Of a stretch of DNA of 64,000 nucleotides, positions 14,398 to 41,166 are shown one piece after another. A program made the position numbers and the translations under genes. Origin of the DNA: Gottschalkiaceae bacterium SANA (GTDB taxonomy: Bacteria > Bacillota > Clostridia > Tissierellales > GPF-1). Numbering within the stretch: position 1 is the stretch's first letter; every line of letters starts with the position of its first letter. Under the pieces are notes generated by a model. That model did no database searches, had not been told where the DNA came from, and was given only the letters and a program-made list of their open reading frames with translations. The DNA is taken from the NCBI GenBank assembly GCA_036323355.1, contig AP028876.1, forward strand, positions 124,001-188,000. The letters run 5' to 3'.

Positions 14398-14421
14398 TAT
14401 AACTCCTTTTTAGTGATATAT

Positions 14422-15258: not shown

Positions 15259-15430
15259 AGCTTCCTCCCGAGGAATATTTTACTTTGACTAATGGATATT
15301 TAAACGAGCCATTTTTCATGTCAACCATCTTATAAAATCTGTCTAGGACAAGTTACTCTTAACTGTCGGAAATTTGTTGATTCTCATATTTATTCGAGAT
15401 GATAGACGGAAGAACTTTAGAGTAACTAGT

Positions 15431-17042: not shown

Positions 17043-17068
17043 AAGAACACAGGTTTCCCTGTGTTCTT
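17043..17068 (-). terminator. Terminator of CI-like gene
   Basis: AAGAACACAGG pairs perfectly with CCTGTGTTCTT over four bases. It overlaps the stop codon of the CI-like gene and is followed on the minus strand by a T-rich stretch. Confidence 0.8.
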
Positions 17069-17378
17069 AGTCGTCTCTTTTGGTTTTTATATAGTCTATA
17101 TATCTTTTCACTTCTTCCAGCTCTTCTTCGGTGAGGTCCTCAGTGGTGTGGAAAGCGAGGGTTTCCGTATGATGCCTCACATTTGTTTTATCTAGTAAAT
17201 AATCTACAGAGATATCAAAGTACTCTGCAAGAAGTTGAAGTGTTTCAAGGTTCGGTTCAATACGGCCATTTTCATATTTGGAAATTGTCGCATTCGTCGT
17301 TTTTATTGTTTTTGCTAATTCTTCTTGCATTAATCCTTTTTCAAGCCGTAAAGCCTTTAGCCTTTCTGGAAAACCCAT
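17067..17378 (-). CDS. CI-like XRE repressor
   Basis: The protein has 103 residues. An N-terminal helix-turn-helix of the XRE/Cro-CI type (LMQEELAKTIKTTNATISKYENGRIEPNLETL) is followed by a short acidic tail. It should hold the lysogenic state by binding the operators between itself and the Cro-like gene. It lacks an autocleavage domain, consistent with removal by the ImmA-like protease at 11272. GAGGTGATATTTATG supports the start at 17378. Confidence 0.85.
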   Translation of the reverse strand: MGFPERLKALRLEKGLMQEELAKTIKTTNATISKYENGRIEPNLETLQLLAEYFDISVDYLLDKTNVRHHTETLAFHTTEDLTEEELEEVKRYIDYIKTKRDD

Positions 17379-17407
17379 AAATATCACCTCTGTAATATTT
17401 TACTATA

Positions 17408-18753: not shown

Positions 18754-18987
18754 ATGGAAGATGTATTGTACACGGTTCAGGAGGTATCAAAATTAATCAA
18801 GACAAACCCTACTTATGTCTATTCTTTAATTAGGAAAGGTTATCTACCAGCATTGAAACTTGGAAACTATAAGGTGAGGCGAACGACTCTAATGGATTTT
18901 TTGGAGAAATATGAAGGTAAAGATCTGACCGATCTTGAACAAATCAAGAGTTACCCGGTAGATTGCGTGATGAGTAAAGTGGTTTAA
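18754..18987 (+). CDS. Excisionase-like MerR-fold HTH protein
   Basis: The 77-residue protein has the HTH_17/excisionase pattern: YTVQEVSKLIKTNPTYVYSLIRKGYLPALKLGNYKVRR. It may guide excision with the integrase or act as a local regulator. GGGAGG precedes the ATG. Confidence 0.75.
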   Translation: MEDVLYTVQEVSKLIKTNPTYVYSLIRKGYLPALKLGNYKVRRTTLMDFLEKYEGKDLTDLEQIKSYPVDCVMSKVV

Positions 18988-19183: not shown

Positions 19184-19648
19184 ATGAAGCACGTAGATAA
19201 GCTGAGAGAGGACTGGGCGAAACACTGCAGGGTTCACTGTTGGAAGTATCGTGACAAGGTTCGGGCATTGAATGAGAAGGTCAAAACGTTGCAGATAGAG
19301 CGAGACAGCTATCTTGGGATCCATGAATACCACAATGCAGATATGAAGGATGAAGACATAGAGATTGCTAAAAAGCAATTGAAGGAGTGTTCACCAATAA
19401 AATTTCAAGAGTTTGCAAAGAGAGAATTTGCAAAGGACTATAAAGAGATCGTTGGAGTTCATGATTTGACAGAACAGGATCGATTGTTCTTTAGAATTTA
19501 CTTTTACCGCGAGTATTTGGGATCCAAAGTGAATGATGTGATCAAGCTGCTAGGAACCAATTACAAAGCCTACTACAAAGTATACAGTGCAGGGATGAAG
19601 TTATTTTTCCCCGAGGATGAGACACAAGAAATATCAGAGGTGGGGTGA
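19184..19648 (+). CDS. Phage early protein, unknown
   Basis: This 154-residue basic, helical protein starts with a coiled-coil-like stretch (KVRALNEKVKTLQIERDSY). A C-terminal region (LTEQDRLFFRIYFYREYLGSKVNDVIKLLG) could be a sigma-70 region 4-like helix-turn-helix (NDVIKLLGTNYKAYYKVYSAG). It stands directly before the replication protein and may be a transcription factor. That is a weak inference. Confidence 0.6.
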   Translation: MKHVDKLREDWAKHCRVHCWKYRDKVRALNEKVKTLQIERDSYLGIHEYHNADMKDEDIEIAKKQLKECSPIKFQEFAKREFAKDYKEIVGVHDLTEQDRLFFRIYFYREYLGSKVNDVIKLLGTNYKAYYKVYSAGMKLFFPEDETQEISEVG

Positions 19649-19652
19649 GGAG

Positions 19653-20687
19653 ATGGCAAGACCACTTAAAGAAGGTATAGATTATTTTTCGTTGGATGTG
19701 TTCCCTGATGAGAAGGTTGGATATTTAGAAGCTACATATGGAGCAGAAGGTTACTATTTTTGGATCAAGCTGCTTCAAAAGATTTTCGCGAATGGATATT
19801 ACATTAAATGGACGAAATTTTCAGTAGCGGCCATGAAACGAGCAACGGGAATTGACATGGAGAAGATTAAAGAAATTTTGGAATGCTGTTTGGAAGCTGA
19901 TTTATTTAGTCGGTCTCTGTATGAAGGACATGGCGTTATTACTTCCAGAGGGGTTCAAAAACGATTTTACATGGCAGCAAGAAAGCGTAAAGAGGTGAAT
20001 GTCATTCCGGAATATGTTCTACACGATAAATTGATGAAGTGGTATGTCGGCAATAATCCGGAAGAAACTTACGAGCAATCATCAAACGGACAGGAAAAAC
20101 CTGACAATAACCAAGTTTTAAACGACGATAATGCGGAAGAAATTCCGCTACAAGAACTAAATGGTCAACAAAAACTTAGCAATAACCATGGTAGTGAGGG
20201 TTTAAATGAGGAGAAAACCTCTTCACTTAAGGAGTTTCCGCAAGGTTTCTGTGAAGTTAATGCGGAAGAAACCATATCGGGGAATAAGTTTCCGGAAGGT
20301 TTCCGCGGGAATAATCCGGATGAAACCCGGAAGAAATCCGGCCAAAGTACACAAAGTAAAGTAAAGGAAAGTAAAGTAAAGAAAAGTAAAGAAGAGAAGA
20401 GTAAAGACCTTATGCCCTCACCACCCAAAATCACCTATGCTGAAAACGTAAAAATGACTGAGCAGCAACACCAAAAACTGATTGACGAACTAGGCGAGGT
20501 TGGAACTAAGTGGGTGATTGATAAGCTGAGCGCTTACAAAACTGGCAATGGTAAAAAGTATGAGAGTGATTATCACGTGATGAGGAATTGGGTCATTGGT
20601 GAATACCTAAAGAGATATCCGGAAAGGGGTGTAGCTCATGCAGGGCTTGAACCAGATCTTAGTCAGCGAGATTGGAATAAATTCTAG
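19653..20687 (+). CDS. Phage replication protein, Lin1244/Lin1753-type N-terminus
   Basis: The protein has 344 residues. Residues 1-120 match the DUF4373/Lin1244 winged-helix domain found at the start of phage replication initiators (MARPLKEGIDYFSLDVFP, GAEGYYFWIKLLQKIF). A long Asn/Glu-rich linker (about 130-260) with a Lys/Ser-rich stretch follows, then a C-terminal DnaD-like helical domain (QHQKLIDELGEVGTKWVIDKLSAYKTGNGKKY). It should bind the phage origin and recruit the DnaC-like loader encoded next. Start 19653 has GAGG upstream. Its stop overlaps the dnaC start by 50 bases. Confidence 0.8.
   Translation: MARPLKEGIDYFSLDVFPDEKVGYLEATYGAEGYYFWIKLLQKIFANGYYIKWTKFSVAAMKRATGIDMEKIKEILECCLEADLFSRSLYEGHGVITSRGVQKRFYMAARKRKEVNVIPEYVLHDKLMKWYVGNNPEETYEQSSNGQEKPDNNQVLNDDNAEEIPLQELNGQQKLSNNHGSEGLNEEKTSSLKEFPQGFCEVNAEETISGNKFPEGFRGNNPDETRKKSGQSTQSKVKESKVKKSKEEKSKDLMPSPPKITYAENVKMTEQQHQKLIDELGEVGTKWVIDKLSAYKTGNGKKYESDYHVMRNWVIGEYLKRYPERGVAHAGLEPDLSQRDWNKF
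20051..20345 (+). repeat. Iteron-like repeats inside replication gene
   Basis: CGGAAGAAA or a close variant occurs near 20059, 20133, 20265 and 20330, with related TTTCCGGAAGG and TTTCCGC blocks between them. The repeats lie in the low-complexity linker. Phage origins often sit inside the initiator gene, so this may be the replication origin. Confidence 0.4.
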
Positions 20688-21417
20688 GCGAAGGAGTAAA
20701 CCTAAGCAATATAACTGCTCGATCTGCAAAGATACGGGGTGGGTGAATGTGATAGGGGCTGATGGACGAGAAGCTTGTAGGCGCTGTGAATGCTTTAAGA
20801 GGCAAAAAGCAGTGAGGGCATTGAAAGCTAGTGGGATTGCAGGGGCATTTCAAAATCGCACCCTAGATAATTACATTCCAAAAACCCCAGTACAAGCTGA
20901 TGCACTGAAGCGTGCAAAACGATTTGTTGAGGTCTGGGGGAAGTACGATGATATGCACATGAACTTCCTACTGCTTGGTCAAAATGGAGCAGGTAAAACG
21001 CATCTTTCGATTGGGATTGCGAATGAATTGATCAAGAAAAATGTATTGGTCCGGTATGTGACTTTCCATGAACTGATGGATATCTTCGCGAAAGCCAAGG
21101 GTCGAGATAAGCAGATCCATACGCTTATCGATCAATACAAAAAGGCTGATCTTCTGGTGATTGATGATGTGTTCAGGACAACGATCCGCGAGTGGAACGG
21201 CAGCAAAAGTCTATTGATGAGTCACATCGATGCAATGTTTCGGATTATTGACTATCGGTACTTTCAGGAAAAAGGCATGGTGATCACCAGTGAGTTGACA
21301 GGAGATGGATTGCTGGATCTGGACCAAGCGATAACGGGGCGATTGTTGGAATATGCTCGTGGCAACATCGTTGAATTCAAGGATTCAAAGTTGGACCATC
21401 GGATCTATGGCGAATAG
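20638..21417 (+). CDS. Phage DnaC-like helicase loader
   Basis: The protein has 259 residues. A four-cysteine zinc site (CSICKDTGWVN, CRRCECF) is followed by an AAA+ ATPase with Walker A GQNGAGKT and Walker B LLVIDDVF. It should load a host or phage helicase at the element's origin. The start overlaps the replication gene by 50 bases; AAGGGGTG lies upstream of the ATG. It is a diverged paralogue of the chromosomal DnaI at 2816. Confidence 0.88.
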   Translation: MQGLNQILVSEIGINSRRRSKPKQYNCSICKDTGWVNVIGADGREACRRCECFKRQKAVRALKASGIAGAFQNRTLDNYIPKTPVQADALKRAKRFVEVWGKYDDMHMNFLLLGQNGAGKTHLSIGIANELIKKNVLVRYVTFHELMDIFAKAKGRDKQIHTLIDQYKKADLLVIDDVFRTTIREWNGSKSLLMSHIDAMFRIIDYRYFQEKGMVITSELTGDGLLDLDQAITGRLLEYARGNIVEFKDSKLDHRIYGE

Positions 21418-23678: not shown

Positions 23679-23758
23679 CGGTCCTACCGGACATGCCGGC
23701 GGACACTTCTGATTGATACGCCAGGGGTGTCTTTATATTTGTAAGAGGGGTGGTAGGA

Positions 23759-24181
23759 ATGGAAGTTGTTAAATGCTATGAGAAATTGTGTAGAGAGATT
23801 GAAAATTATGAAACACGACTAGAATCACTGATTGCTCAAAAGGAAGGAATTATGAAGAGATGGCTGAAGCCATTGGGCGACATTCAGGGGATTGATTACA
23901 CGCGGACAAGGGTCCAAGGGGGCCGTCAAAGATTAGATATGGAGGAGGAACTCTTTCGTTTAGGAGAAACAGAAAAGAACATAGAAAAATACCAAGCGCT
24001 GTTGGAAAAACTCCATGGAAGTCTTAGCAGAATGAAAGAGCAGATCGATGAAATGAAAGGGTTGGAGTACAAGATTTCTTTTATGAAAAGGGTGGAAGGG
24101 AAGAGTCTGTTGGTGATTTCAGAGGAACTAAATTATTCGTATGGGTACATCAGAAAACTATCTAGTGAAATGAGTGGTTAA
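23759..24181 (+). CDS. Phage late-transcription regulator-like protein
   Basis: The protein has 140 residues. A coiled-coil N-terminus (about 5-95) is followed by a sigma-70 region 4-like helix-turn-helix (GLEYKISFMKRVEGKSLLVISEELNYSYGYIRKL). This layout matches ArpU/RinA-type activators that switch on phage late genes. In this island no late genes follow. ATG 23759 with GAGGGG upstream is preferred over GTG 23750. Confidence 0.6.
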   Translation: MEVVKCYEKLCREIENYETRLESLIAQKEGIMKRWLKPLGDIQGIDYTRTRVQGGRQRLDMEEELFRLGETEKNIEKYQALLEKLHGSLSRMKEQIDEMKGLEYKISFMKRVEGKSLLVISEELNYSYGYIRKLSSEMSG

Positions 24182-24284
24182 TAAGAATGGCGATAATTTT
24201 ATAGAATAGGACACCAGAAAAAGCAAAGGGTTATTTGAGCGAGTAACCAGGCATGTTTTCTGGGTGAAAGTGAGGAGGGGTATT

Positions 24285-25049
24285 GTGAATGAGATGATGA
24301 TATTTACAAACAAGGAATTAGGCGAAGTGCGAACACTGAGGATTGATGGTGAACCGTGGTTTGTTGGGAAGGATGTTGCGGTGGCTTTGGGTTATTCAGA
24401 TTCAGATCAAGCCATTCGAAAGCATGTTGATGATGAGGATAAGCTAACCCGTCAAATCAAAGGGTTAGGTCAAAATCGAAATATGAAGCTGATCAACGAG
24501 TCAGGATTGTATTCTCTGATCATGACCAGCAAGCTCGAATCTGCAAAAACATTTAAGCGGTGGGTCACGAAGGAAGTGTTGCCTTCAATCCGGAGACATG
24601 GTCTTTATGCAACCGAGGATTTACTAGAAAATCCTGATCTAGCAATTCAAGCACTGCAGAGATTGAAAAAGGAACGTAAACAAAAGCTGCAGCTACAAAA
24701 GAAAATTGAATTAGACCAAGTCTACACAGATTTTGGTAGATCGATATCCAAAGTAGAGGATGGGATCTTGATTGGTGAGTACGCTAAATTATTGAAGTCT
24801 GATGGAATTGAGATCGGACAGAATAAACTGTTTGCCTGGATGCGCGGGAATGGATATCTTATCGGATCTGGGAAGCGAAAAAACAGTCCGATACAGAAAT
24901 ATCTAGAACGGGGATTGTTCGAGGTAACAGAGACTATTATTCACACGAGAAAGGGGGATAAGGTGATATTAACAACTCTCCTTACTGGGAAAGGGCAGCT
25001 ATACTTTTATGAAAAGCTGAAGACTCAGTTTGGCTTGGAGGTGTCGTAA
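24285..25049 (+). CDS. Phage antirepressor, Bro-N and KilAC domains
   Basis: The protein has 254 residues. The Bro-N domain (about 1-105) contains WFVGKDVAVALGYSDSDQAIRKHV and SGLYSLIMTSKLESAKTFKRWVTKEVLPSIRRHG. The C-terminal KilAC domain contains IGEYAKLLKSDGIEIGQNKLFAWMRGNGYL. Antirepressors of this type lift repression during induction. GTG 24285 is chosen because GAGGAGGGG ends four bases upstream. Its stop overlaps the start of the next gene. Confidence 0.87.
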   Translation: MNEMMIFTNKELGEVRTLRIDGEPWFVGKDVAVALGYSDSDQAIRKHVDDEDKLTRQIKGLGQNRNMKLINESGLYSLIMTSKLESAKTFKRWVTKEVLPSIRRHGLYATEDLLENPDLAIQALQRLKKERKQKLQLQKKIELDQVYTDFGRSISKVEDGILIGEYAKLLKSDGIEIGQNKLFAWMRGNGYLIGSGKRKNSPIQKYLERGLFEVTETIIHTRKGDKVILTTLLTGKGQLYFYEKLKTQFGLEVS

Positions 25050-25240: not shown

Positions 25241-26129
25241 CCAGAGATCAATCGAATATTCAAAAGACAGAGGATACCCTTTAGCGGGCATCCTCGTTGT
25301 ATGCGACATGGGTAAATTTGGCGGATAATTGTGTAAAAAAAGGGCGAAAAACGGTGAAGAAATGCATGTTTTTTGCAGTCAGAAAAAATGAGTTCACCAT
25401 ATTTAGCAAATGTGTAACTGGTTTTTGATGAAGTGTCGAGATGCTGATGATTTCAATACTTAAGGCGGTTTTAGTGAGTTAAACACAATACTAAGATATG
25501 TTTAACTCAAACACCTATTATTTGGGAGTATTTGGAAAATGATTGAGTGTTCCAATCCTGAGTGTTTTGGAGAATTATCAGGGAAAACTTCGATGGTAAA
25601 AGTAGTCTTTTTGATGTGATCTGGAATGAATATCAGGGGAGATTAAGCGAGCAAACAGAGATCTGTTTATAGATGATCGATGCATACGACTTGCCTGGTC
25701 AAATCGAGAATGGTTTGGTAGATATTTGTGATTATTGATTGATCGGTATGTGCTGAAGGCTAGATTAAGAGCTGGTTACAGGGAAACCTGCAGGTGAATA
25801 GATCAAGAACCAGGTACCAAGGTTGCAGCTTATCCCGGATCCGGAACGAGTAGCCATCACATATGGAAATTGAGGGCTCATGGGAAGATGGATCCAGATG
25901 ATCATGCCCTGGCATGATAGCCAGGGGTAGGGGGGTGCTCAAACTTTTGGCCAAAGCGAGGAGACCGAGCGGGTGGCCTTTTTCACACACCCGTAAAATT
26001 TGATTAAGGGGGGGAATAAACATTAATTCATTTTAGAAGTTTGTAGTGGGAAAGATCGTTGTTATCAATATTAATTGAATTATTTGAATTGATATGTCAT
26101 GCTGAATGAGAAAGTTCTAGGAGGTGAGG
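25241..26129. other. Non-coding stretch before the SIR2 gene
   Basis: No convincing gene is seen. A terminator-like hairpin (GAGGATACCC/GGGCATCCTC, 25270-25295) ends the early operon. GAGTTAAAC/GTTTAACTC forms a perfect stem at 25476-25508. CCCTGGC/GCCAGGG (25907-25926) stands directly before the cos-like sequence at 25923-26014. The rest looks like decayed phage DNA. Confidence 0.6.
25923..26014 (+). other. cos-like phage packaging-region sequence, copy A
   Basis: A G-run, a TCAAA element, GGAGACCG, GGGTGG, CACCCG, AAAATTTG and a closing AAGGGGGG run occur in this order over about 92 bases. The same order and length are seen at 30191-30281. This kind of sequence sits between the HNH and small-terminase genes of many cos-type Firmicute phages, where the closing G-run is the terminase ribosome site. 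Here no terminase follows. Confidence 0.5.
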
Positions 26130-29027
26130 TTGTTGGATTACACAGATTACATTAAAGAAATTCAAGATGCATCAAAAAACAACAAGTTGGTATTCTTTGT
26201 TGGTGCAGGTGTATCTAGATTAAGTGGTTATCCGAGTTGGACAGATTTGGTGAACGAATTTTATACAAAGCTTTACAAGAAAAGGAAGAAGCGAACGAAA
26301 TTCTCGACTGAAGAGAACCTTCAAATTCCAGAAAAATTTTATCGAACCCGAGAGAAAGAGGATTTTGATAAAATTCTTAAGAAGATGTTTGGTGTCGAAA
26401 AGAAATCAAATATTGTTCATGAGAAGATGATGATACTTAATCCAGCCCATTTTATAACTACGAATTACGATGAATTGATTGAACAAGCGTGTAATAAGCG
26501 CGGGAAGTATTATAGTATAATCAGCTCGGATGATGATGTTGCACGAGTTGAGTCATCTAAATTCATTTTAAAGGTGCATGGAGATTTTAGAAATGGCTAT
26601 AATAGTGAGAATATAGTTTTGATGGAAAAGGATTATCTGAACTATGAAAATAAGTATGCTTTAACAAGCAATCTTATGAAGTCCATTTTGGCAACGTATA
26701 CTATTGTTTTCATAGGTTATGGCTTAGGGGATCATAATATAAAACTTTTACTGAATTGGGTGAAAAATCTTCAGAAGGATGGATATAAAGAACCGTTCTT
26801 TATCTTAACTGAGGATGAGCAACTGGATGATCCTACGAAAATTTATTACGAAGGTAAAGGGCTTCGAATAATTGAGTCCTGTTTAATCGATAACAATCAA
26901 GAAGAATCCTTCGAAAAGCGTTATGTAAAAGTTCTTGATAGGTTGACAGACCCATATGAAAATCATTACTTGGATGAGGATGAAAATCAAATTATAAATT
27001 ATATTTATGATAAAATTTGTCCGTTGTTAAGGCTTTCAAGTATTCGGAAAGATGATTTTGAAATCGTGTTTGATATGAAGTACCATTTCAGAGCTGATGG
27101 CAGTATTTGTTGTAATAACAAAAGTGGAGTTAACTATTTGGAGCAATTCTTCACACTTGATGTAAATGCATTATCCGAAGAAAGTCAAAAGAAATATCAT
27201 GAAATAAGGATTCTGTTTGAGCATAATGAGACTTGGTATGAATCGGAAGGCATTTTGGGTCCGAGAACAAATATATCACTGAAGATTCAAAATCCGATGT
27301 ATCATTGTGACTTTAAGCATATAAGAGAATTGGCTCATCTTCCTACGAAGTCACTTTTAGATGAATATCAGCGAGCTTATTATTTAGCTTGTCTAGGGCG
27401 ATTTAAAGAAGCTTATGAAATTCACAATATTATTTTAGGAAAGGCAAAGGATGAAGAAGATTGGCTAATGCATTATCTGTCACAAATTAATAGATATCGA
27501 CTTTTTCAAACCATTATGTCTATGAGAGCTTATGGTGTGCAGAGTGGGGATGAAAGTTTTATCCAAAGAATTGAAGTGGAGATGAAAGATTATAAGATTA
27601 GCGATGTATTTGATAGCATGCCTTTTAACTTCCAAACGCAGTATAAGTCTTTGAAAACGTTAAGTGATAACTACTATATGTATTCAGATACAGTTAAATT
27701 GTTTGAAAGAATTACAAAGACTAACAAGCATATATTAACAGGTTCATATAGCTTTGGCTTTTCGCAAGCTAATTATGCGATTATAGAAATGTATGATAGT
27801 TTGAAATTTTTTTATGAAAACAAACTTTGGCTTACAAGTTTTAAAGATATGAAGGAATATGTCAAGAATTCTATCGTGTTAATGTTTGATTCAGCGGAGT
27901 ATGAAGCAACTCGAGAGAGGCGACCAAATGATTTGTTCTTCGCATCAAGGAATTCATCGTTTACTGTTGATTATTATGACTTTGTAAATGTCTGTAAATC
28001 ATTTGAGGTGGCAGATATTATTATTCTGGAAAGGAAATGTAATCTTAAGAGATTTGAATTCCAGGAACAACAGCATATTTGTCAATATATTATACGGATA
28101 GTGAATGAAGTTGTTTATCAGTTCTCGAATGGTGGTATGAATTATTTGTTTTATGTACTCTTTATGGAAGAAGCAAAATCGGCAGTATTTTTTGCGAAGT
28201 ATATTCAGTTTTCTAATACTGATTACACAACAATAGTGAATGCTTTATTATTACATTATCCGTGGAGGGATGTTAATGAATTACAACGTTATCAGTGGAC
28301 AGAAAGATTGTTCGTGATGCATGATTTGCCTATGGAAGTAATTCCAATAATTGAAGAGTACTTATTAGGACAAGCGTTGAAGCATAACGATGAAAAGTAT
28401 TTCGATGATCAATCACATTGTTTTACTGGTCTCATAAGGCACTTTTATAAAGATTATGTATCGACAACTTTATCCTCATTTGTTTTTACCCTTGACGAAA
28501 CACAAGATAGAATAGTCGATTTTATGTATCGCTTATCATTAATTCTAACAGATGAAGCAAAAGTGTATTTGAGAAGGTTGAAGAAGATTGAAACGATTAC
28601 TGATGTGGTAGATGCTTTAAGAATTGGTGTGATAAGTGAGGTGGACGAGTATTCTGAAATAATAATTGATTACATAGAGCAAAGATTTACGGGAAAGAAG
28701 GGAGTTTGGGTAAAAGATGGTTCCTTACGAAGAATAGATAAATATTCTCTTGATTTTGCAATCAAGTATTTTCTCGGGAAATACAGAGATGAGCGGATGA
28801 AAAATTTTGTGGGGTTTAGTGATCAATTTGATTTGTTTGTATCCCCAGAAACCTTTGATTTTGAAAAATTTGAAGTGAGCTGGTTGAGATATTATAATCT
28901 CGAAGTGATCAAGGAAATGGCTAAGAATGAATATATGAGGTCACATCTATTAGAGACTCTAAAAGCAAGTGCAAAAGAATCTAAGGATAATAGATACTAC
29001 GAGATTCTAGTAGCATGTTTCTTATAG
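26130..29027 (+). CDS. dsr2: DSR2-like SIR2 antiphage protein
   Basis: The protein has about 965 residues. The N-terminal SIR2 NADase domain shows LVFFVGAGVSRLSGYPSW (from residue 20), TTNYDELIEQAC, KFILKVHGDFR and IVFIGYGLGDHNIKLLLNWV. The long helical C-terminus matches, as I recall it, Bacillus subtilis DSR2 almost to the end, including a closing DNRYYEIL motif. DSR2 senses phage tail tube protein and depletes NAD+, killing the infected cell. The AGGAGG site is at 26119-26124, so the start is a TTG at 26130 or 26133 rather than the overlapping GTG 26124. Composition is AT-rich. Confidence 0.88.
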   Translation: MLDYTDYIKEIQDASKNNKLVFFVGAGVSRLSGYPSWTDLVNEFYTKLYKKRKKRTKFSTEENLQIPEKFYRTREKEDFDKILKKMFGVEKKSNIVHEKMMILNPAHFITTNYDELIEQACNKRGKYYSIISSDDDVARVESSKFILKVHGDFRNGYNSENIVLMEKDYLNYENKYALTSNLMKSILATYTIVFIGYGLGDHNIKLLLNWVKNLQKDGYKEPFFILTEDEQLDDPTKIYYEGKGLRIIESCLIDNNQEESFEKRYVKVLDRLTDPYENHYLDEDENQIINYIYDKICPLLRLSSIRKDDFEIVFDMKYHFRADGSICCNNKSGVNYLEQFFTLDVNALSEESQKKYHEIRILFEHNETWYESEGILGPRTNISLKIQNPMYHCDFKHIRELAHLPTKSLLDEYQRAYYLACLGRFKEAYEIHNIILGKAKDEEDWLMHYLSQINRYRLFQTIMSMRAYGVQSGDESFIQRIEVEMKDYKISDVFDSMPFNFQTQYKSLKTLSDNYYMYSDTVKLFERITKTNKHILTGSYSFGFSQANYAIIEMYDSLKFFYENKLWLTSFKDMKEYVKNSIVLMFDSAEYEATRERRPNDLFFASRNSSFTVDYYDFVNVCKSFEVADIIILERKCNLKRFEFQEQQHICQYIIRIVNEVVYQFSNGGMNYLFYVLFMEEAKSAVFFAKYIQFSNTDYTTIVNALLLHYPWRDVNELQRYQWTERLFVMHDLPMEVIPIIEEYLLGQALKHNDEKYFDDQSHCFTGLIRHFYKDYVSTTLSSFVFTLDETQDRIVDFMYRLSLILTDEAKVYLRRLKKIETITDVVDALRIGVISEVDEYSEIIIDYIEQRFTGKKGVWVKDGSLRRIDKYSLDFAIKYFLGKYRDERMKNFVGFSDQFDLFVSPETFDFEKFEVSWLRYYNLEVIKEMAKNEYMRSHLLETLKASAKESKDNRYYEILVACFL

Positions 29028-29098
29028 CTATTACTCATACGACTGATTTGAAGCTTAAAAAATAGAACTATAAAGGATTTTTATGGTGAGGTGAAATT

Positions 29099-29650
29099 AT
29101 GGCAGCGGCAAATCCAATTCGGGAAAAGCAATTGATTTATGATATAGCAGGATATTTGAGGAAGCAAAACGAAAGGGATTACATCCTTTTTATGTTGGGA
29201 ATTTATTCAGGGTTGAGGATTAGTGATATTTTGAAATTGAAAGTTTCAGATGTTCGGGGGCAGGATCATTTTATTGTGACTGAGCAGAAGACGGGGAATG
29301 TACGGAAGATTATTATTAATCCGGAATTGCAACGGGAGATCGCGATCTATATTACTGGAAAAGATGACGAAGATTATCTCATACGCTCAAGGGAGAGTTA
29401 TAACCGGCCAATATCAAGGCAAAGGGTGAATCAGATTCTTGAAGACGTTGGGGATAAATATAAAGTTCACTTGACTGCGCATTCATTGCGGAAAACATTC
29501 GGATATCATTTTTATGTGCAGTATGGAGAAAGGCACGCGTTGCCAATGTTGATGAAGATTTATGGCCATTCAAGAGAAACGCACACTTTATTGTATATTG
29601 GAGTGGAACAGGAGTATATTGATAGGACGTTGAGAAACTTTAGATTTTGA
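29099..29650 (+). CDS. Small tyrosine recombinase
   Basis: The 183-residue protein consists of little more than a catalytic domain: Arg in GIYSGLRISDIL, HSLRKTFGYH, GHSRETHTLLYIG. It lacks an arm-binding domain. Such short recombinases are common in Firmicute phages just before the HNH/terminase module, which fits the cos-like sequence downstream. Its recombination role is unknown. The AGGTGAAATT stretch precedes the ATG. Confidence 0.85.
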   Translation: MAAANPIREKQLIYDIAGYLRKQNERDYILFMLGIYSGLRISDILKLKVSDVRGQDHFIVTEQKTGNVRKIIINPELQREIAIYITGKDDEDYLIRSRESYNRPISRQRVNQILEDVGDKYKVHLTAHSLRKTFGYHFYVQYGERHALPMLMKIYGHSRETHTLLYIGVEQEYIDRTLRNFRF

Positions 29651-29977
29651 TTAATTAAGTATGTTTTACTGTTTAGTTTGTCGTAATGAGGTGTATTACA
29701 AACTGGGTTTTTGTGACAGGAGGAAAGGCGTTGATATGACAGGGATTGAGGCGTTTTTCACGAATTTGTCAAAATGATAGAAACGACAAGCTCAAAGAGG
29801 TGCTAGGAAAACACATTCTAAGCCAGTAACCATGCGGGCTGTCCTATGGTTGAGGAGGTGATTTCGGGAAAATCGCCAAGTGATCTAGGAAATCGTGAAA
29901 AATACCAGGTGGAATTGTCTTGTTTCGAGTGTTAGATGAGGGTCCCACAAAGAAGAATTGAGAATGGAATAATGAGT

Positions 29978-30038
29978 AAAGATCAGCAGCATGTTGATCC
30001 GGATAACTACCGGGGAAGCGATGCGCTGATCTTTTTTG
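29978..30038 (+). terminator. Long-loop terminator or small-RNA end
   Basis: AAAGATCAGC (29978-29987) pairs perfectly with GCTGATCTTT (30025-30034) and runs into TTTTTT. The loop contains a CCGG/CCGG inner stem. Confidence 0.65.
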
Positions 30039-30190
30039 TTGTCTGAATAGCTGTATATCAGCAGTGTGGACGCAGGATGCGATTTGAGCCCGTTGAGTAT
30101 CTTCTACGACAATAACCACATATTGACAACTAGAACGCGTGTACGGGCCGTATATGGCTTCAATGAGCTTTGTTTTATACATACATGCAA

Positions 30191-30281
30191 ATAGGGGGAG
30201 GGGGGGTCAAATCTCTAGAGACGGTCGCAAGGGGACCGTTAGGTGGGCTTGCATTCATGTTCCCGCAAATTACAACAAGGG
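30191..30281 (+). other. cos-like phage packaging-region sequence, copy B
   Basis: The order of landmarks matches copy A at 25923: long G-run, TCAAA, CGCAAGGGGACCG, GGTGGG, CCCGCAAATT, AAGGGGG. The final AAGGGGG is followed at once by ATG, where a small-terminase gene would start, but the frame closes after five codons. It probably marks where the packaging and structural module was lost. Confidence 0.55.
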
Positions 30282-30888
30282 GGTATGTTTAGAGAACCTT
30301 AGTAAGAATCAGATGGTAAGTTAGAGGTTTTTAACAAGTCCAAGTAATCTTTAGTATAGATCAAAAACTTGAGTTCGTTTTTTATAAGATGGATAGCGCA
30401 GTTAGAAGATCAGTTTGCCTTGCAAAAGTAAACCATCGAATTGAATATATGAAATCATATCGTTACAATAGATTCTAATCTATTAAAGTGAGAACTTCGT
30501 AGTAATTCAAGTTGTGCTTAGATAGATAGCGATGCGGTTCATAAAAGTGAAGGATAATTTAACGAACTGAGATCATGAAGACTAGAGAGTGTAGTATATG
30601 TATGCAGAAATATATGACTGAAATTATGTTGTAATAAAATGTGAGACATAATTTAATTAAAGTGTTTGCAATATTTATAAAAGAAAGATAATATAGCTTT
30701 TATAGTAATTGTTACCTTAATACCATCTATGAAGCAACTACAAGGGGAATTAATAAACAATAGATGAATTTATTTTCGGGTGTTTAATTATTAACAAAAA
30801 GATAGTTGTCATCATTAGGAAAGATTCAAAAAGAGATATTTATAAATAAAGTTATATATTCAAGACTATTTAACTTGGAGGAGAGCGG

Positions 30889-31989
30889 ATGATGAGAAAA
30901 AGAAAATTGGAAAAAGTGACAATGGCATTGGTGTTGATGGCTATAGTTGGTGCGACTACGCTGGTATTTTCGGCAAATGAAAACAGTTTGTTGGGAACGA
31001 GAAAACGAATTTTGTTGTATGAAGAAAAACCAAGACCGGATATGAGACAAAAAGAAGAACCGATGGATATTGAGATGGTTGAAGAAATAGAATTTCTTGC
31101 TCCAATTATGACGGAACAAGGAGAGGCTGTTGTTTTGGCTTTTGGTAATGAGAGAATGTCACAAATAAAATTCGGAATTGAAGAAGAGGTAAATAGTATC
31201 ACGCTTTCGGATGAAGACACCAAAAGAATTGAAAATCTTGACAAGAAAAATAGCAAGAAGAATATAATCAATTACAAAAAGTTGCTTATGGAATTTGGAG
31301 TGTCAATTAAGCAACAAAATGAATTACAAAAATACTTCGATATGAAACGCCAGCCTAATGATGTGTATTTCGCATATGAATATCTTTACAGAAATTACGG
31401 AACATTCGATGAGTTGGAAGTGATGCTTCAAGATAGAGAGGAAGGGAAAGCGTGGCAGCAAATTCTTGACGAATATGAAAGCGAAAGTGGTGAATTTGAG
31501 CCAATGAATTTTCCAAAGGGTTATTTGGATCAATTAATGAAAGAAAGAGCAATATCTGTGGACGATATTTTAATCGCAGAAAATTTAGCAAGAAAAGTCA
31601 GTAAAGATTTGAGTTGCGATATATCTGATAAGAAATCTATAAGTATTAAGTGTGATTCCAATAATCCCACGATTGAGAGGACTGAAACTGGATTAGAGTA
31701 TTTTGAAAACCTAATTAGTTTAAGAAAGAAAGGGTTACCTTGGAAAGTAATAAAAACGGATTTGGGTGTTATCAATGCCGAAGGAAAGAACCAGAGAATA
31801 GAGATAACAGAGAGCGAAATTCTTGAATTATCTTTGAAATATGAAGATCTGACAGAAGAACAGATCATTGAGACAATTATTATGGCTAAAACATTAGATG
31901 AAAATATACAGGACATTATTATTGCAAAAAGAGCTAAGAAAAAAGACAATGTGATTTTCTTTGAATATTTGCAAAAAAAATACAAGTAG
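30889..31989 (+). CDS. Secreted helical protein upstream of Rhs toxin
   Basis: The protein has 366 residues with a signal peptide or anchor (about 8-30). The rest is charged and helical, with two imperfect repeats: a segment like FDELEVMLQDREEGKAWQQIL recurs as FENLISLRKKGLPWKVI, each followed by a DDILIAENLARK-like helix. No known domain is recognised. It ends 15 bases before the Rhs gene, so the two are probably cotranscribed. A role in export or folding of the Rhs protein is inference. TTGGAGGAG precedes the ATG. Confidence 0.7.
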   Translation: MMRKRKLEKVTMALVLMAIVGATTLVFSANENSLLGTRKRILLYEEKPRPDMRQKEEPMDIEMVEEIEFLAPIMTEQGEAVVLAFGNERMSQIKFGIEEEVNSITLSDEDTKRIENLDKKNSKKNIINYKKLLMEFGVSIKQQNELQKYFDMKRQPNDVYFAYEYLYRNYGTFDELEVMLQDREEGKAWQQILDEYESESGEFEPMNFPKGYLDQLMKERAISVDDILIAENLARKVSKDLSCDISDKKSISIKCDSNNPTIERTETGLEYFENLISLRKKGLPWKVIKTDLGVINAEGKNQRIEITESEILELSLKYEDLTEEQIIETIIMAKTLDENIQDIIIAKRAKKKDNVIFFEYLQKKYK

Positions 31990-32004
31990 GCGAAAGGGGA
32001 GAAA

Positions 32005-35000
32005 ATGAGAATAATAAATAGATTCATTTCAATAAGCATCATTTGCATTTCAATGCTCTTAGCCTGTAGCTCTATGGGTTTTTCAGATACATTAGCGGAA
32101 AATCTAAACAATTTACAGACTCCAAGAGCAATGTACAATACGGAACTTTCAAATTCTTATTATCAGAGCAATCAAACTTCGGAATATGTGGATCCACAGA
32201 GTGGAGAACTGGTCATTACACAAACGGACTATGTATTGCCGGGAAGAAATGGGTTGGATTTAGAAATAAAGAGGATGTACAAAAGTAGTGTGGCTAATGG
32301 AAATATACCAAGTATAAAAACAACTAACTTAGGTTCTTACGATCATTCAAGGAGTGGAATAACTTTCTATCAAAAATATTATGGTCTTGATCAAGGGTGG
32401 CGTTTCTCCTTTCCAATGATCGAGGTAAAGTTTAATAAGTCAGATGATTCTGAGTACATGTTTTATCACTCTGAAAACGGAGCGATTTATGAAATTGATA
32501 TTAATAAAACAGAGGAAGACGATTTTTACAGTTTTAAAAATAGGACACTTCAAGATTTAGTTATTGAACAAGATGATTCCTATAATAATGGACAAAACAG
32601 TAATGAGTCGTTGTCAAAGTATGTAATCCGTCAAAAGGATGGTAAGTCTTTATACTTTTCAGCTAGTGGAAGAATTTTGGGGATCCAGGATAGATATGGG
32701 AATACGATTAATTTTAATTATGCGGATATAATATATAGATCACCTCCGCTTTCCCCAGTTAATTATTCTCGTACTTTAATAACAAAAATAACGGATAGTT
32801 TAGGTCGAGATATTGTCTTTGATTATCATTTTAATACGGAACAATATTATGTAGATAGAATTAGCATATGCTTGCCAGATTCGACGGATGAAACGTTAGA
32901 AGATAATGAAAAAATTTCATATTTACGAGATGATTTTAATCCTAATCCATTAAAAACACATCTTTTTTTTACGACTGTGATTGGACGGGATGGAAATTCA
33001 ATATATGAGTATAATTATGATTATATTGAGCATGGGTACACATTTTTTAATGGAGATAATTATTCTGCGATTGGTAAATACACTAATTTGAATCAAATTA
33101 ATTATTCTCGAACAAATCGAATTACTCGTTTTGAGTATGATACATTTGTTAAATCACTTGGGTCAAGTGGTAGCATGGAGTATAGCAAAGTTGTGAAGAA
33201 AACTGATTTGGCTCAAACAGGCTGGGATGATAGTCGTTCTGATTACTTTGACAAGTTCCTCTGTACGGTGGAAGATGAAAAGACTTATACATATTGGCAT
33301 GAGCCCGATGGGTATGGAGTAGCTGGCTATGATGCAACGGATGAAACTTATCTCGCGGATTCGTACAAGTACAGAACAACCATACTGGACTTAGATGGGT
33401 CGGAAACACTATATGTGTATAATGGATTGCATGAATTGGTTAGAAAACGCTTTAAAGGTGATGATCATAAAACGGTTATACGGCAAGAATATAATTCTGA
33501 AAATCTTCCTGTAAAAACTAGTACCGAAGAATACCATATTGTGAATGGTAATTTATATGGTGATCCTGTAGTAAGTGTTGAGAATTCTGAATATGATATT
33601 TATGGCAATCTGTTGTCATACACAGGTCCAATGGCTGATCGTGATCAGAACAAAATGCCGTTGAATGATAACTATACCACATTCTATACTTATGCAACCG
33701 ACAGGTATCATATGTGCACCTCGAAGCAGTGGAAAATTGATGGGTCCAAGACGCGAAGAACGGAATATTCCATTAATACAGATGGCAATGTGACACAGAA
33801 GAAAGATATTCACATTGAAGATGGTGTGGATCAGTCGATTATTTCTGATTATCTGTATGATAGTTATGGCAATCTGACACAAGAAACGGTTGATGGTGCT
33901 ATTGTCAAGCAGTATGAATATGGAACAGACCTTGACGGTACGGACCATCAAGGGGCTTATTTGACCAAGTCGTATACTATGATTGACGGAGAAGAGGTTT
34001 CTCAAAATTTTGTATATAATTTTTATACAGGAAATAGAAAGGCTGTAGTTGATCCAGATGGAAATCGGACCAATTATTTTTATGATGCGTTGGAAAGAAT
34101 TTCCACCATTGTTTATCCGGACGGATCTCAGAAATCATATGACTATTATGATTTTTGGAACGAAGATAGCTATGTGACGATTTCAGGTGCGAAAGAGCTG
34201 CCGCAGATTTACACGTTTGATATCTTTGGAAATATCACATCCGAGCAGATGTTAGCCAATGATGTAATTGAGATCCTTGGCACCTATGAATATGATTCGA
34301 ATGGTAATCTGTCAAAATATGTTGATGCCAACGGAAGAGAAATGCATTTTTCATACGACAGTAAAGAACGGATCATAGGGAAATCGTGGTGGTCTGATTA
34401 CAATAGCCAGGAAAAAGCTATTTCTGTGGAGTACTTGACGAATTACCAGGGTACCGTTCCGCTGTTAAAGCGTATAACGGATTCTGAAGGATATACCAGC
34501 GAGTATTATTACAACAAGGCGAACAAGTTGTATGAGATCAGAGAAACGGATAACAAGCAAGATTACTATACAATCACACAGAGTTATGATTTTGCAGGGA
34601 ATCCGACGGTAAACAAGGACAAGAATAATCAATTTTCCTACCTCACATATGATGATCTGGGCAGGCTTGTTGGGCAGCGGGATGCTTTAAACAATGAGAC
34701 TCAATTTACTTATGATTCATTTGGAAATATGGTTCAAGCTACATATCCAAATAATCAGACTGTTGTATATGAATATGACTTGTTAGGAAGAAGGATCAAG
34801 GAAGAACGACCATCGATTGATGGTAGCATAGCAACAACCCGGTTCTTCTATGACAAAATGGGCAATTTGACAAAGAGGGTTCTCCCGAATGAATATGATG
34901 TGCTAAGCGACACACCGGAGCTTAGTGATACAATGCTTGGCATTGTATATGAATATGACGTAATGAATCGCAGAATCAAAACAACAGCAGCAGATGACAA

Positions 35001-38000
35001 TGTTTTGGAGTATGTGAAATACGATATCAACGGGAATATTAAAAAGGTCGTTGACGGACTTCGCTATACGGGAGATATTGATTTGTCGCTTGGTACTACA
35101 TTTACCTATGAATATGGTGACTTTGGTGAGCGCGTGTCACAAATCGAAGATGCCTTGGGGAACACGACCAGTTACACCTATGATTTGAAAGGGCAGCTGA
35201 AAAGTGAAACCGATCAGCTGAACAATACAACGCAGTATGAGTATCGCTATGACGGTCTGGTGACAAAGGTCATTTATCCGGATGCTAGCTTCGTAGAATT
35301 TGGTTATGACAACATTGGTAACAGAACCTATGAGAAGGACGAAAATGGAAACATTACTGAGATCGAGTACAATGGTTTTGGCCATGTGGAAACAATCACC
35401 GATGCATTGAATCAAACGATTGAGTATTCATATGACCCAAATGGGAACCAGACCAGTGTTACAGACCGAAGAGGTATAACTGCACTGTTCAGTTACGATG
35501 AGCTTAACCGATTGGTCTTGAAAGAAGTACCAATTGAAAGCAATGGATCAGCGGTGGAGTACAGCACAACGGGGTACGCGTACAACAATATGGGGAACTT
35601 GATCCAAGAGACGGTATCAGGAACCATCAATCCGTTGGACAGTCGTGATAGTAATTACACTTATTATGATAATGGGTTGCTTGATATGGTTACAACTAAT
35701 GCCGGGAAATCGCAGAAGTATTACTATGATGCGAACGGCAATACTATCAAGATGGAGGAATCCATTTCGAATGGCCAGCTTCAGGTCGCGAAAATGGTGT
35801 ACGACATCAACAACAGGGTGATTAAGAACATTAGGCTTGTAGAGGAAGATTTGATTTATGACAGTGTGATTATCCCGAACGTTGCAAACTTGGTAGACCC
35901 GGAGTATGCAGGGAAGATTATGTTGATAAATGGATACCAGTATGACATGGTGGGCAACCTTGTCAAAGAAGTCGATCCGAGGGCTTATGGGTATTTGGAT
36001 ACGGATACGGTCAATAGAGACCGATACACCACAACCTATACCTATGACCCGCTGAACCGCCTTGAGAAAACGAGTATGCTCCTTGATGGACAACCGGTCT
36101 ATACGCAGAACTTCTATGATGCCAAAGGTAATCTGACATCACAGCTAGATCAAAAAGCGGGTATAGTCACTTACACATATGACGTACGTGATCGACTGGC
36201 GACTATGACAGATCAGCTTTTGAATCTGACAACTTATGGATATGATTCGGCAGGAAACCAAGTTTCCATAACCGATGCGCGAAGTCACACCTACACATAT
36301 GATTATGACGCATTAAACCGGATCATGACAGTTACGGATCCATATGATGATGTGCAGCAGAGAATTGTTTATGACGAGGAAGGCAACATAATCAAGGACA
36401 TCGATGCAAAGGGATACCTGGATGGCATTACGGATGAGACTAGATTCGGAACCCATTATGAGTACAATATGGCAGGTCTTATGGTAGAAGAGATTGATCC
36501 GGTGGTCTTTGACCTGGGAGATCCAACAAAGTTCACTGCAAGGTATCAGTATAACCAGTATGGAGAATTGATCACGGAGACAAACGGAGAAAATGAAACA
36601 ACAAGCTATCAGTACAACAACGCTGGTAAACTTGTGAGTGTTACAGATGCTTTGAACATCCAGACGATTTATTCCTATGACATGGCTGGGAATATGGTTT
36701 CCATGATGGATGGACTGCAAAAGCAGACGTTGTATGGATACGGAGACTTTGGCATTCTGGCAAACGACACAAACCCTGAAGGATTGCAACGAAGCTACGG
36801 ATATGATTTGGCTTTAAATCTTGTATCCGAGGTGGACCGAAACGGTAACCATATGGCTTATGTTTTTGATCCAAGGAATCTGTTGACATCGAAGTCTGTG
36901 GCTGAGACAAATGATCTGGTAACCTGGCAGTATGATGAGCTGGGCAGCCGTGTTGGAATGGCTGACGAGAGTGGAACATATGCGTACAGCTATGATGCCC
37001 TTGGGCGACTGCTTAACATTCAGGAATCTGGACAACTGCAGATTGGGTATACCTATGATGCTGTGGGGAATGTAAAAAAAGTGACGGATAAAAATGGTTT
37101 AGCTACTACGTATGATTATGATAGCGTGGACAGGATTTATAAAGTGTCGCAAGGTTATAGCAAAATCTCGTATTGGTATGATGATAACAGTAACATTACG
37201 AAGATTGAATCTGATTCTAACAGAGTTAATTCCGATTATTCGTATGATAAGAATGACAGAATACTGGAAGTAACCAACAAAAGAGGTGCATACGGGATTA
37301 TTTCGAGTTACGTTTATTCTTACGACCTTGCTGGTAGAACTGTTTCGAAAACGGATTTATCCGGGCAGACCAGTTATACCTATGATGATGTAGGACGGAT
37401 AGTTGGTGTTCAGGCACCGGATAAGACTGTGACCTATCAACATGACACTATAGGCAACCGAAGCTTGATGACAGAAACTTATGCGGCACTGCAAGGAACG
37501 GGGTATGTTGACGAGGCAACTCAGACTGAGATCCAGTTTATTACTAAAACCAGCCAGTACAGTTATTCAAACGCGAATAAGTTGATGAGCTTGACAGAAG
37601 TCTGGAGTGATGGGCAAGGATCCCAAGTGCTACAGGATACAACGGCCTACACGTATGACAACAATGGCAATGAAGTTTCCACCATTTCTGGATGGAGGTC
37701 TATGCAAAGTGTGTACGATGGATTCAATCGCCTTGAAAACAAGGCAACAACAAAAGATAGCATAGCAACAACGGTAGGTTTTGTTTATAATGGAGATGAC
37801 CTACGTGTTGAAAGAACGATAGTCAGCACTGAGGTGGGATTTATTCCCGAGACGACGAAGTTCTTTTATGACCGCCTGAATGTCCTGCTTACAACGGATG
37901 AGCTAGGCAATACAAAGGAACGGTTGATCATAGGTAATGGTTATGAAGGTCGGATTGATGACCTGGGGATGATAAGTTTTTTCCATAAAAATGGTCATGG

Positions 38001-39297
38001 AGATATTGTTCAAACTGTATCAAAGAGTGGTAATGTTCAGAATCAATATGATTATGACATCTTTGGCAATACAACTCTTGAGATTGAGCAATATCCGTTC
38101 CAGATTCGATATGCTGGTGAGTATTACGACAAGGATGCAGAATTATATTACTTGCGTGCGCGGCACTACAATCCAAGTACCGGACGGTTTGTATCTGAGG
38201 ACACGTATCTGGGGGACTATAATCAACCATCAACTCTGAATCTTTATACATATTGCATTAACAATCCTTTGAGTTATGTGGATCCGTCTGGACACAGGAT
38301 TATGAATCTAACCCAAGGTAGCACGGGCATTGAAGCGGTAGAACAAGTAAATGAGATAAACAGTTCTGCAAGTGAACCAGTAGTGGCTCCGACGGTGCAA
38401 GATATAGTTGGGCAAAGTCAGACCACCACTATTGGGGAAATGGCAATTGCAAATGGCTATGCGGAAACTGTAGCGATTGGCACAGGTGGTACAAATAATG
38501 ATGTATCGGAAGAATACACAAACAGTGATGCATCTGTTGAAACGCCTTCGGGAATATCAACCCAGCAACATACTACAAGTAGCAGCTCTGGAAGCAGACG
38601 TCGAAACAATGAAATTGATTCGAGAGGCAAGTTGGAGTTAGACAGTGATTTGAATAACTCAACAAATTCAGGAACAGGAGGACCTGTTTCCGAGGGAGAA
38701 AGTCAAAAACGGCCAGTGAACTTCGATAAGATTGGTAAAATTGTTTATGCATCATCAGAAGTAATGCTAGGAGGATTAACAGTTGTTGGATCGGCGGCGT
38801 ACGCGGCTTCTACTGGAGGAGTTGGTGTTGTTGCAGGAGGGACGGTTGCTGTTGTTCATGGTGTAAACTCCATACTTAACGGTATAAATGATTTTGAACA
38901 TATGCTTGATGATGACTGGGATGCAATTGGAGATGAAAACTACTTGCGAGATTATTTTTATGAACCAGTTGGAGTTACAGGAGTAAATCTTGTTGGTGAT
39001 AGCTATGGTCTTGACAGTTCTCAAACGGAATATTATGGTGAAAAGGTAGGAAGTGCTGTATATTATGCAAGTGATATGTTTTTCAGCGTAAAAGGGACAG
39101 TAAAAGCCGTTCAGGCATTAAAAAAAGCTGAATGGACACGAGGTAGTTTCAAGGCGATCAGCCTACCAATTCAAATGGAAGAAATAGTTGGTTATAAGAC
39201 AAACGGGGAGTTGATTGCACATCTGATGAAAGATAGTATAGGATACTATTATAATCTGAAGTCAGCTGCACCAAATTTGATTGAGGGACTGCAGTGA
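32005..39297 (+). CDS. Secreted Rhs/YD-repeat polymorphic toxin
   Basis: The protein has 2430 residues. A signal peptide (about 1-29) is followed by the Rhs N-terminal signature (VDPQSGELVITQTDYVLPGRNGLDLEI). Dozens of YD repeats (such as YTYDLKGQL, YEYDLLGRR) fill residues about 440-2060. The core ends with the conserved YLRARHYNPSTGRF and DPSGHR near residue 2098. The variable C-terminus of about 330 residues has a Ser/Thr-rich linker and a Gly/Ala-rich hydrophobic segment (GGLTVVGSAAYAAS, VHGVNSILNGINDF) that resembles DUF4225-like toxin tips. Rhs shells encapsulate toxins for contact-dependent competition. A membrane-active effect is inferred from the hydrophobic tip and the membrane protein encoded next. 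Confidence 0.88.
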   Translation: MRIINRFISISIICISMLLACSSMGFSDTLAENLNNLQTPRAMYNTELSNSYYQSNQTSEYVDPQSGELVITQTDYVLPGRNGLDLEIKRMYKSSVANGNIPSIKTTNLGSYDHSRSGITFYQKYYGLDQGWRFSFPMIEVKFNKSDDSEYMFYHSENGAIYEIDINKTEEDDFYSFKNRTLQDLVIEQDDSYNNGQNSNESLSKYVIRQKDGKSLYFSASGRILGIQDRYGNTINFNYADIIYRSPPLSPVNYSRTLITKITDSLGRDIVFDYHFNTEQYYVDRISICLPDSTDETLEDNEKISYLRDDFNPNPLKTHLFFTTVIGRDGNSIYEYNYDYIEHGYTFFNGDNYSAIGKYTNLNQINYSRTNRITRFEYDTFVKSLGSSGSMEYSKVVKKTDLAQTGWDDSRSDYFDKFLCTVEDEKTYTYWHEPDGYGVAGYDATDETYLADSYKYRTTILDLDGSETLYVYNGLHELVRKRFKGDDHKTVIRQEYNSENLPVKTSTEEYHIVNGNLYGDPVVSVENSEYDIYGNLLSYTGPMADRDQNKMPLNDNYTTFYTYATDRYHMCTSKQWKIDGSKTRRTEYSINTDGNVTQKKDIHIEDGVDQSIISDYLYDSYGNLTQETVDGAIVKQYEYGTDLDGTDHQGAYLTKSYTMIDGEEVSQNFVYNFYTGNRKAVVDPDGNRTNYFYDALERISTIVYPDGSQKSYDYYDFWNEDSYVTISGAKELPQIYTFDIFGNITSEQMLANDVIEILGTYEYDSNGNLSKYVDANGREMHFSYDSKERIIGKSWWSDYNSQEKAISVEYLTNYQGTVPLLKRITDSEGYTSEYYYNKANKLYEIRETDNKQDYYTITQSYDFAGNPTVNKDKNNQFSYLTYDDLGRLVGQRDALNNETQFTYDSFGNMVQATYPNNQTVVYEYDLLGRRIKEERPSIDGSIATTRFFYDKMGNLTKRVLPNEYDVLSDTPELSDTMLGIVYEYDVMNRRIKTTAADDNVLEYVKYDINGNIKKVVDGLRYTGDIDLSLGTTFTYEYGDFGERVSQIEDALGNTTSYTYDLKGQLKSETDQLNNTTQYEYRYDGLVTKVIYPDASFVEFGYDNIGNRTYEKDENGNITEIEYNGFGHVETITDALNQTIEYSYDPNGNQTSVTDRRGITALFSYDELNRLVLKEVPIESNGSAVEYSTTGYAYNNMGNLIQETVSGTINPLDSRDSNYTYYDNGLLDMVTTNAGKSQKYYYDANGNTIKMEESISNGQLQVAKMVYDINNRVIKNIRLVEEDLIYDSVIIPNVANLVDPEYAGKIMLINGYQYDMVGNLVKEVDPRAYGYLDTDTVNRDRYTTTYTYDPLNRLEKTSMLLDGQPVYTQNFYDAKGNLTSQLDQKAGIVTYTYDVRDRLATMTDQLLNLTTYGYDSAGNQVSITDARSHTYTYDYDALNRIMTVTDPYDDVQQRIVYDEEGNIIKDIDAKGYLDGITDETRFGTHYEYNMAGLMVEEIDPVVFDLGDPTKFTARYQYNQYGELITETNGENETTSYQYNNAGKLVSVTDALNIQTIYSYDMAGNMVSMMDGLQKQTLYGYGDFGILANDTNPEGLQRSYGYDLALNLVSEVDRNGNHMAYVFDPRNLLTSKSVAETNDLVTWQYDELGSRVGMADESGTYAYSYDALGRLLNIQESGQLQIGYTYDAVGNVKKVTDKNGLATTYDYDSVDRIYKVSQGYSKISYWYDDNSNITKIESDSNRVNSDYSYDKNDRILEVTNKRGAYGIISSYVYSYDLAGRTVSKTDLSGQTSYTYDDVGRIVGVQAPDKTVTYQHDTIGNRSLMTETYAALQGTGYVDEATQTEIQFITKTSQYSYSNANKLMSLTEVWSDGQGSQVLQDTTAYTYDNNGNEVSTISGWRSMQSVYDGFNRLENKATTKDSIATTVGFVYNGDDLRVERTIVSTEVGFIPETTKFFYDRLNVLLTTDELGNTKERLIIGNGYEGRIDDLGMISFFHKNGHGDIVQTVSKSGNVQNQYDYDIFGNTTLEIEQYPFQIRYAGEYYDKDAELYYLRARHYNPSTGRFVSEDTYLGDYNQPSTLNLYTYCINNPLSYVDPSGHRIMNLTQGSTGIEAVEQVNEINSSASEPVVAPTVQDIVGQSQTTTIGEMAIANGYAETVAIGTGGTNNDVSEEYTNSDASVETPSGISTQQHTTSSSSGSRRRNNEIDSRGKLELDSDLNNSTNSGTGGPVSEGESQKRPVNFDKIGKIVYASSEVMLGGLTVVGSAAYAASTGGVGVVAGGTVAVVHGVNSILNGINDFEHMLDDDWDAIGDENYLRDYFYEPVGVTGVNLVGDSYGLDSSQTEYYGEKVGSAVYYASDMFFSVKGTVKAVQALKKAEWTRGSFKAISLPIQMEEIVGYKTNGELIAHLMKDSIGYYYNLKSAAPNLIEGLQ

Positions 39298-39334
39298 TAG
39301 AAAGTATGTATTAATTTAGTGATGAGGTGTATTA

Positions 39335-39625: not shown

Positions 39626-39789
39626 TGCTGAAATTCAAGTATGTGTTTACGTATTGAGTATAGTATAGGTCCGTATAAGCGTGACAAATCATGCATGAGC
39701 TTATAGTTGCTGAGTTTGAAAATTTCAAATGTGATTAAATAACGAGAGATATTATAAGAAGAGATAATTAATAAATGGAGGCAAGTTTA

Positions 39790-41157: not shown

Positions 41158-41166
41158 TAGAATAGA

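Follow-up and report, generated by a model that had tools for sequence, protein, structure and literature searches.

The window analysed here is a 64,000-nucleotide stretch of the genome of Gottschalkiaceae bacterium SANA. It contains an integrated element of 31,897 bp (Table 1). The flanks of the element, which end at 9802 on the left and begin at 41678 on the right, are joined in two sister genomes with an overlap of 22 bp, the empty site. The empty site in two sister species therefore places the element at 9781-41699. The first-pass annotation had located the two cos-like sites correctly, but its interval of 25923-30281 was much shorter than the real span. The attachment repeats are imperfect direct repeats of 22 bp, and a k-mer search found no perfect att repeat because attL and attR are identical at only 18 of 22 positions. 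cos2 was considered as the right integration boundary and rejected, since attR is located at 41678 according to the empty site. Tandem elements were also rejected: the window has no third att copy, even with up to 6 mismatches allowed.

The integrase is followed by cargo coding for an IrrE/ImmA-like peptidase, a NACHT protein, a DEDDh exonuclease and a dGTPase-like HD protein (Pfam, PADLOC, NCBIfam). Both the NACHT-domain protein (12061-14397) and the dGTPase-like HD protein (15431-16789) are defence candidates. Beyond the repressor, the rightward genes include a regulator-like protein that may be of the late-activator type. A DSR2 homologue and the small tyrosine recombinase int183 lie between the two cos-like sites, and both had been named correctly at first reading. 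The DSR2 homologue aligns over its full length with a solved DSR2 (residues 7-966, phmmer E=7e-252), including the SIR2 domain and the C-terminal helical region. It retains the motifs ITTNYD and KVHGDF. The scanned ORFs of the element had no structural or lytic domain, and no capsid-remodelling gene was found among them.

Table 1. Features of the element, with window positions and the evidence for each.
Feature	Position	Strand	Evidence
attL, 22-bp imperfect direct repeat TACTAAGAATCTGGAGAGGCTT	9781..9802	.	overlap at the empty site, two sister genomes
411-aa tyrosine integrase (Arm-DNA-bind_4 + SAM-like + Phage_integrase)	9968..11203	-	Pfam
Cargo between integrase and repressor	11272..16789	-	Pfam, PADLOC, NCBIfam
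Phage-type repressor, divergent from replication genes	17067..17387	-	PHROGs
HTH_17 (Xis/AlpA-like) protein	18754..18987	+	Pfam
Replication initiator (Lin1244-type) and DnaC-like helicase loader	19617..21417	+	Pfam, PHROGs
Phage transcriptional-regulator-like protein	23750..24181	+	PHROGs phrog_36; homologue in prophages
BRO/KilAC anti-repressor-like protein	24264..25049	+	Pfam
cos1, diverged HK97-type cos	25923..26017	+	phage cos profile, reciprocal profile, sister-element comparison
Variable slot 1 (3.06 kb)	26018..29080	+	homology breaks against the sister element; NCBIfam
DSR2 homologue, 967 aa, predicted SIR2-domain NADase	26124..29027	+	phmmer to solved DSR2
int183, small tyrosine recombinase	29099..29650	+	lies before cos in the sister element as in related prophages
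cos2, HK97-type cos close to the resident prophage cos	30191..30283	+	genome search, profiles
Variable slot 2, replacing the prophage right arm	30284..41677	+	domain scans, prophage B comparison, empty site
attR TACTAAGACATTGGAGAGGGTT	41678..41699	.	empty-site comparison

The sites cos1 and cos2 have the same orientation and share, in this order, a G-run, TCAAA, GACCG, GGTGG, CCCG, AAATT and AAGGGG, as described by the first-pass annotation. Its observation that neither is followed by a small terminase gene (terS) holds as well: about 104 bp separate cos1 from the start of the DSR2 gene, and the ORF that comes after cos2, of 366 aa, is unrelated. A global alignment of cos1 and cos2 scored 15, higher than all 5000 dinucleotide shuffles (null mean -5.1, sd 4.8). 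Among the 63,797 98-mers on both strands, cos1 was the best match to cos2 (17.5; next unrelated 9.5). An nhmmer profile was built only from phage cos regions directly upstream of terS (L003, L004, L029, L112-L115) and included no sequence from the element. It searched 128 kb of strand and had exactly two matches in the window, at 30198-30284 (E=2.9e-14) and 25927-26014 (E=0.0021); cos1 alone had a weak score of 14 bits. A reciprocal profile of cos1, made from the window and sister-species sequences, found as best non-self matches cos sites of phages adjacent to terS (E=7e-5 to 0.02), including one in Peptoclostridium. The first profile links both sites to terS-adjacent cos regions and the reciprocal one does so for cos1, which agrees with the original suspicion of a phage packaging sequence. 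Direct BLAST of both sites against named phages yielded matches of 24-33 bases only, and a scan of viral contigs with the cos1 pattern found nothing. Among 249 genomes of the order, cos1-like DNA was found in only two, that of the window and that of the sister element.

The type of the cos sites was revealed by the comparison with HK97. The HK97 record ends with ...TCAAATC...GACCGCCGCCAAA and restarts with GTTTG. The G-run and TCAAATC are located before the end, GACCG adjoins the end, and the CCCG/A-tract TerS site stands after it. The TerS-binding stretch of HK97 extends from +15 to +29 (PMC11331095); it covers the CCCG plus T-tract. As the landmarks match the genome end and the TerS site of HK97, they are parts of an HK97-type cos. 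Both sites have them in the HK97 order, the genome end and the TerS-binding region among them, with a strong agreement for cos2 and a weaker one for cos1. The gene order HNH-cos-terS of HK97 is shared by the resident prophages, whereas the element has no match to HNH, terS and terL. The 10-nt overhangs are predicted to be approximately CGTTAGGTGG for cos2, CGAGCGGGTG for cos1 and CGTTCGGTGG for the resident prophages, in a register uncertain by about 3 nt. The predicted overhangs of cos2 and the prophages agree in 9 of 10 positions, those of cos1 and cos2 in 5 of 10.

In the profile comparison, cos1 resembles the prophage cos more than it resembles cos2. A recent duplication of cos2 as origin of cos1 was rejected, since the prophage cos is nearer to cos1 than cos2 is. 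Judged by their sequences, cos1 and cos2 are separate cos lineages. The spacing from GACCG to CCCG is 22 nt in cos1 versus 23 nt in the prophages. Upstream of cos2, non-coding DNA at 29905-30190 is conserved at about 90-93% between species and loci, and a terminator-like hairpin without Rfam match is located at about 29979-30040.

When the host genome was searched with cos2, sites turned up beside two resident prophages, in the order int183-HNH-cos-TerS (P27 type)-TerL. The early region of the element is collinear with these prophages at 65-75% DNA identity. When the ORFs of prophage B were compared by tblastn with the element and its sister, the early ORFs and int183 matched, and so did, as an exception, an 88-aa ORF on the opposite strand that overlaps the cos region. 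The terS, terL, HNH and other right-arm ORFs of prophage B had no match in either element. Prophage B has 32,078 bp and is bounded by a 21-bp perfect repeat; the length of the element is within 1% of it. For prophage A, a weaker candidate repeat pair suggests about 35 kb. A unit of helper length suits cos packaging because a full-size helper capsid would need one. The length match is suggestive of packaging and not a proof, because it rests on one prophage.

The sister species has an element at a different chromosomal site (G001:C56), with an integrase of 62% identity. There, regulator, Ant, cos1, cargo, int183, cos2 and further cargo follow one another. Only two intact elements with this two-cos layout were seen, of which the sister one is truncated where its contig ends. 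The cos1 sequences share 88% identity over 25881-26017 (138 bp), and the upstream DNA at 25535-25880 had no alignment. The int183 proteins are 98% identical. Between cos1 and int183, the cargo differs. Homology breaks where cos1 ends on the right and again 18 bp ahead of int183, not at cos2, and no repeat that would indicate site-specific recombination was seen at the edges of the slot. The sister cargo codes for a 528-aa protein with similarity to NCBIfam GapS1 (E=6e-13, below the curated cut-off) and for a 305-aa protein without a family match, whose RNSFTH motif may be HEPN-like. For the GapS1-like cargo, no homologue was found in the viral contigs or elsewhere in the order. The first-pass annotation had proposed a swap of the defence gene through recombination between the cos regions. 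The presence of another defence-like cassette at the same place supports the swap, not this route: a simple recombination between the cos copies is unlikely, as the swapped slot stops short of int183 and the two cos belong to distinct lineages. In some prophages, the slot before int183 has defence-like genes, too. One codes for a PD-T4-9-like SecB-domain protein and a 225-aa partner (L169:1054-2455), another for a cytosine methyltransferase and an ATPase protein detected by PADLOC type II restriction models (L029:9935-13009).

Between window and sister, the identity is mostly 90-100% up to about 30239 and then drops to about 0.65, with CCCGCAAATTA kept. This drop falls inside the predicted cleavage region. 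In the window, slot 2 has genes for the 366-aa protein, a 2430-aa Rhs-repeat protein (32005-39297) and a repeat-rich 460-aa protein; the gene at 39775-41157 has a 15-bp-periodic repeat array. The sister cargo right of cos2 comprises HNH, OLD-family nuclease, UvrD-like helicase and reverse-transcriptase-like genes. Beside a tRNA (uracil-5-)-methyltransferase gene, the cos2 region recurs as a solitary copy of 379 bp with 93% identity (L005:11834-12210; G000:C1:2203833-2204209). In this remnant, the cos2 DNA precedes an HNH fragment and the genes of Gabija (GajA E=3e-243, GajB E=4e-156) and Shedu. In genome G002, int183 is the first element gene at this locus, without a left arm. The boundaries at cos2 fit, and do not show, the idea of a cohesive-end recombination in P2 and P4 (PMC9122126). 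A cos boundary is not a proof of this process because it would likewise be expected if the right arm alone could be replaced. Two uncultured phages of the family have an antisense ORF inserted between cos and terS (L134/L135:9240-9940); thus, cargo also enters right of cos in terminase-bearing phages.

With moderate confidence, the element is interpreted as a cos-type phage satellite that arose from a prophage of the HK97-like family resident in this host. It has no capsid, tail or lysis genes of its own but probably moves in capsids supplied by resident phages. A helper-packaged cos satellite had already been suggested; the suggestion finds good anatomical support in the integrase, the att sites, the lack of matches to the right arm of prophage B, the HK97-type cos and the host prophages with a related cos. 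On induction of a related prophage, the island would excise and replicate as a concatemer. TerS, TerL and HNH of the helper would cut at cos2, and one unit of 31.9 kb would fill the helper capsid of about 32 kb. The cos1 site, the more diverged of the two, may serve another helper whose terminase differs, or may persist as the edge inherited with the defence slot. By sensing the tail tube of competing phages and depleting NAD+, DSR2 would shield the lysogen and the compatible helper from them. It is improbable, though conceivable, that the two cos are recognised by the terminases of different helpers, with one satellite serving two phage types and the choice of the cut including or dropping the 4.3-kb defence segment. 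If so, the defence slot would be a packaging-linked cassette and cutting would promote its exchange among satellites.

The most serious competitor is a defective prophage in which chromosomal cargo replaced the right arm exactly from cos onwards, leaving an immobile defence island with two cos relics. We consider it unlikely, although it accounts for the collinear early genes at 65-75% DNA identity, and a size twice that of usual PICIs together with ordinary prophage early genes keeps a degraded prophage with a replaced right arm in consideration. The third locus, beside the tRNA-methyltransferase gene, is clearly such a remnant, with its 379 bp of cos2 DNA, HNH fragment, Gabija and Shedu. The window element differs from a relic in its intact integrase, its recognisable att sites and a length close to that of prophage B. 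Two further points argue against decay: the two-cos layout recurs in a second species at another place in the chromosome, and cos1 is conserved next to non-coding DNA that has diverged.

The position of int183 directly before cos in these phages and satellites, and the G002 locus that begins with int183, could indicate that the cos-like sequences are recombination sites of int183, with int183, cos2 and cargo as the moving unit. This is very unlikely, since the same landmarks occur at the HK97 genome end beside terS, the HK97-type loci examined have HNH-cos-terS without a detected int183 homologue, and no repeat indicative of a site-specific recombination was seen at the slot edges. The landmarks are short and G-rich, and the 14 bits of cos1 are low, as would be expected for a chance likeness of two unrelated G-rich non-coding sequences or for a conserved RNA element. 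Such an origin is hardly credible in view of the shuffles, none of which reached the cos1 score, the rank of cos1 among all 98-mers of the window, the exactly two profile matches and the reciprocal match to terS-adjacent sites. A structured RNA was rejected, with no Rfam match and no significant or unusual folding.

The satellite reading invites a comparison with PICIs of Gram-positive bacteria. The element has its own att site and integrase, int on the left and a repressor divergent from xis and the replication module. Phage structural and lytic genes like those of prophage B are absent according to the tblastn, and the scanned ORFs had no domain of this kind. However, its 31,897 bp exceed the typical size of about 15 kb, and PICI-unique genes such as pri-rep are lacking; its genes for replication and regulation have homologues in the resident prophages. 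Because of this mixed membership, the element is called a cos-type, phage-derived satellite working like a PICI, rather than a PICI.

Satellites with two cos sites and defence hotspots adjacent to cos are already known. EcCICFT073, a PICI of E. coli, has two cos sites, both functional (PMC6092414). In the CFT073 DNA taken to be EcCICFT073, two exact cosN copies are located 750 bp apart in inverted orientation around one small ORF. The element shares the presence of two cos sites, but these are HK97-type, diverged, direct and 4.3 kb apart, whereas the inverted cosN are lambda-like. Its pair also brackets a swapped defence cassette, and the unit has 32 kb. SaPIbov5 has a helper-like cos, no own terminase and is packaged by cos helper phages (PMC5052747), and SaPIbov4 has two putative cos sites (PMC6092414). 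The helper-like cos without an own terminase is a common trait of these islands and the element. They differ in size and capsid: the SaPIs have about 14 kb and remodel capsids with Ccm, while the element has about the length of prophage B. In P4-like satellites and P2-like phages, variable anti-phage genes are located directly beside cos, and a cohesive-end recombination was suggested (PMC9122126). Variable anti-phage genes adjoin cos in the element, too. Lineage and cos type are unrelated, and the element resides in a Clostridia-type host and has two cos sites with a variable slot beside each.

By these findings, a satellite of Clostridia that is likely packaged via cos carries DSR2. They also add, from Gram-positive bacteria, an independent counterpart to the defence hotspots beside cos in P2 and P4. 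With a sister pair of matching frames and different cassettes, together with prophages having a related cos, the exchange of defence genes beside cos becomes directly testable.
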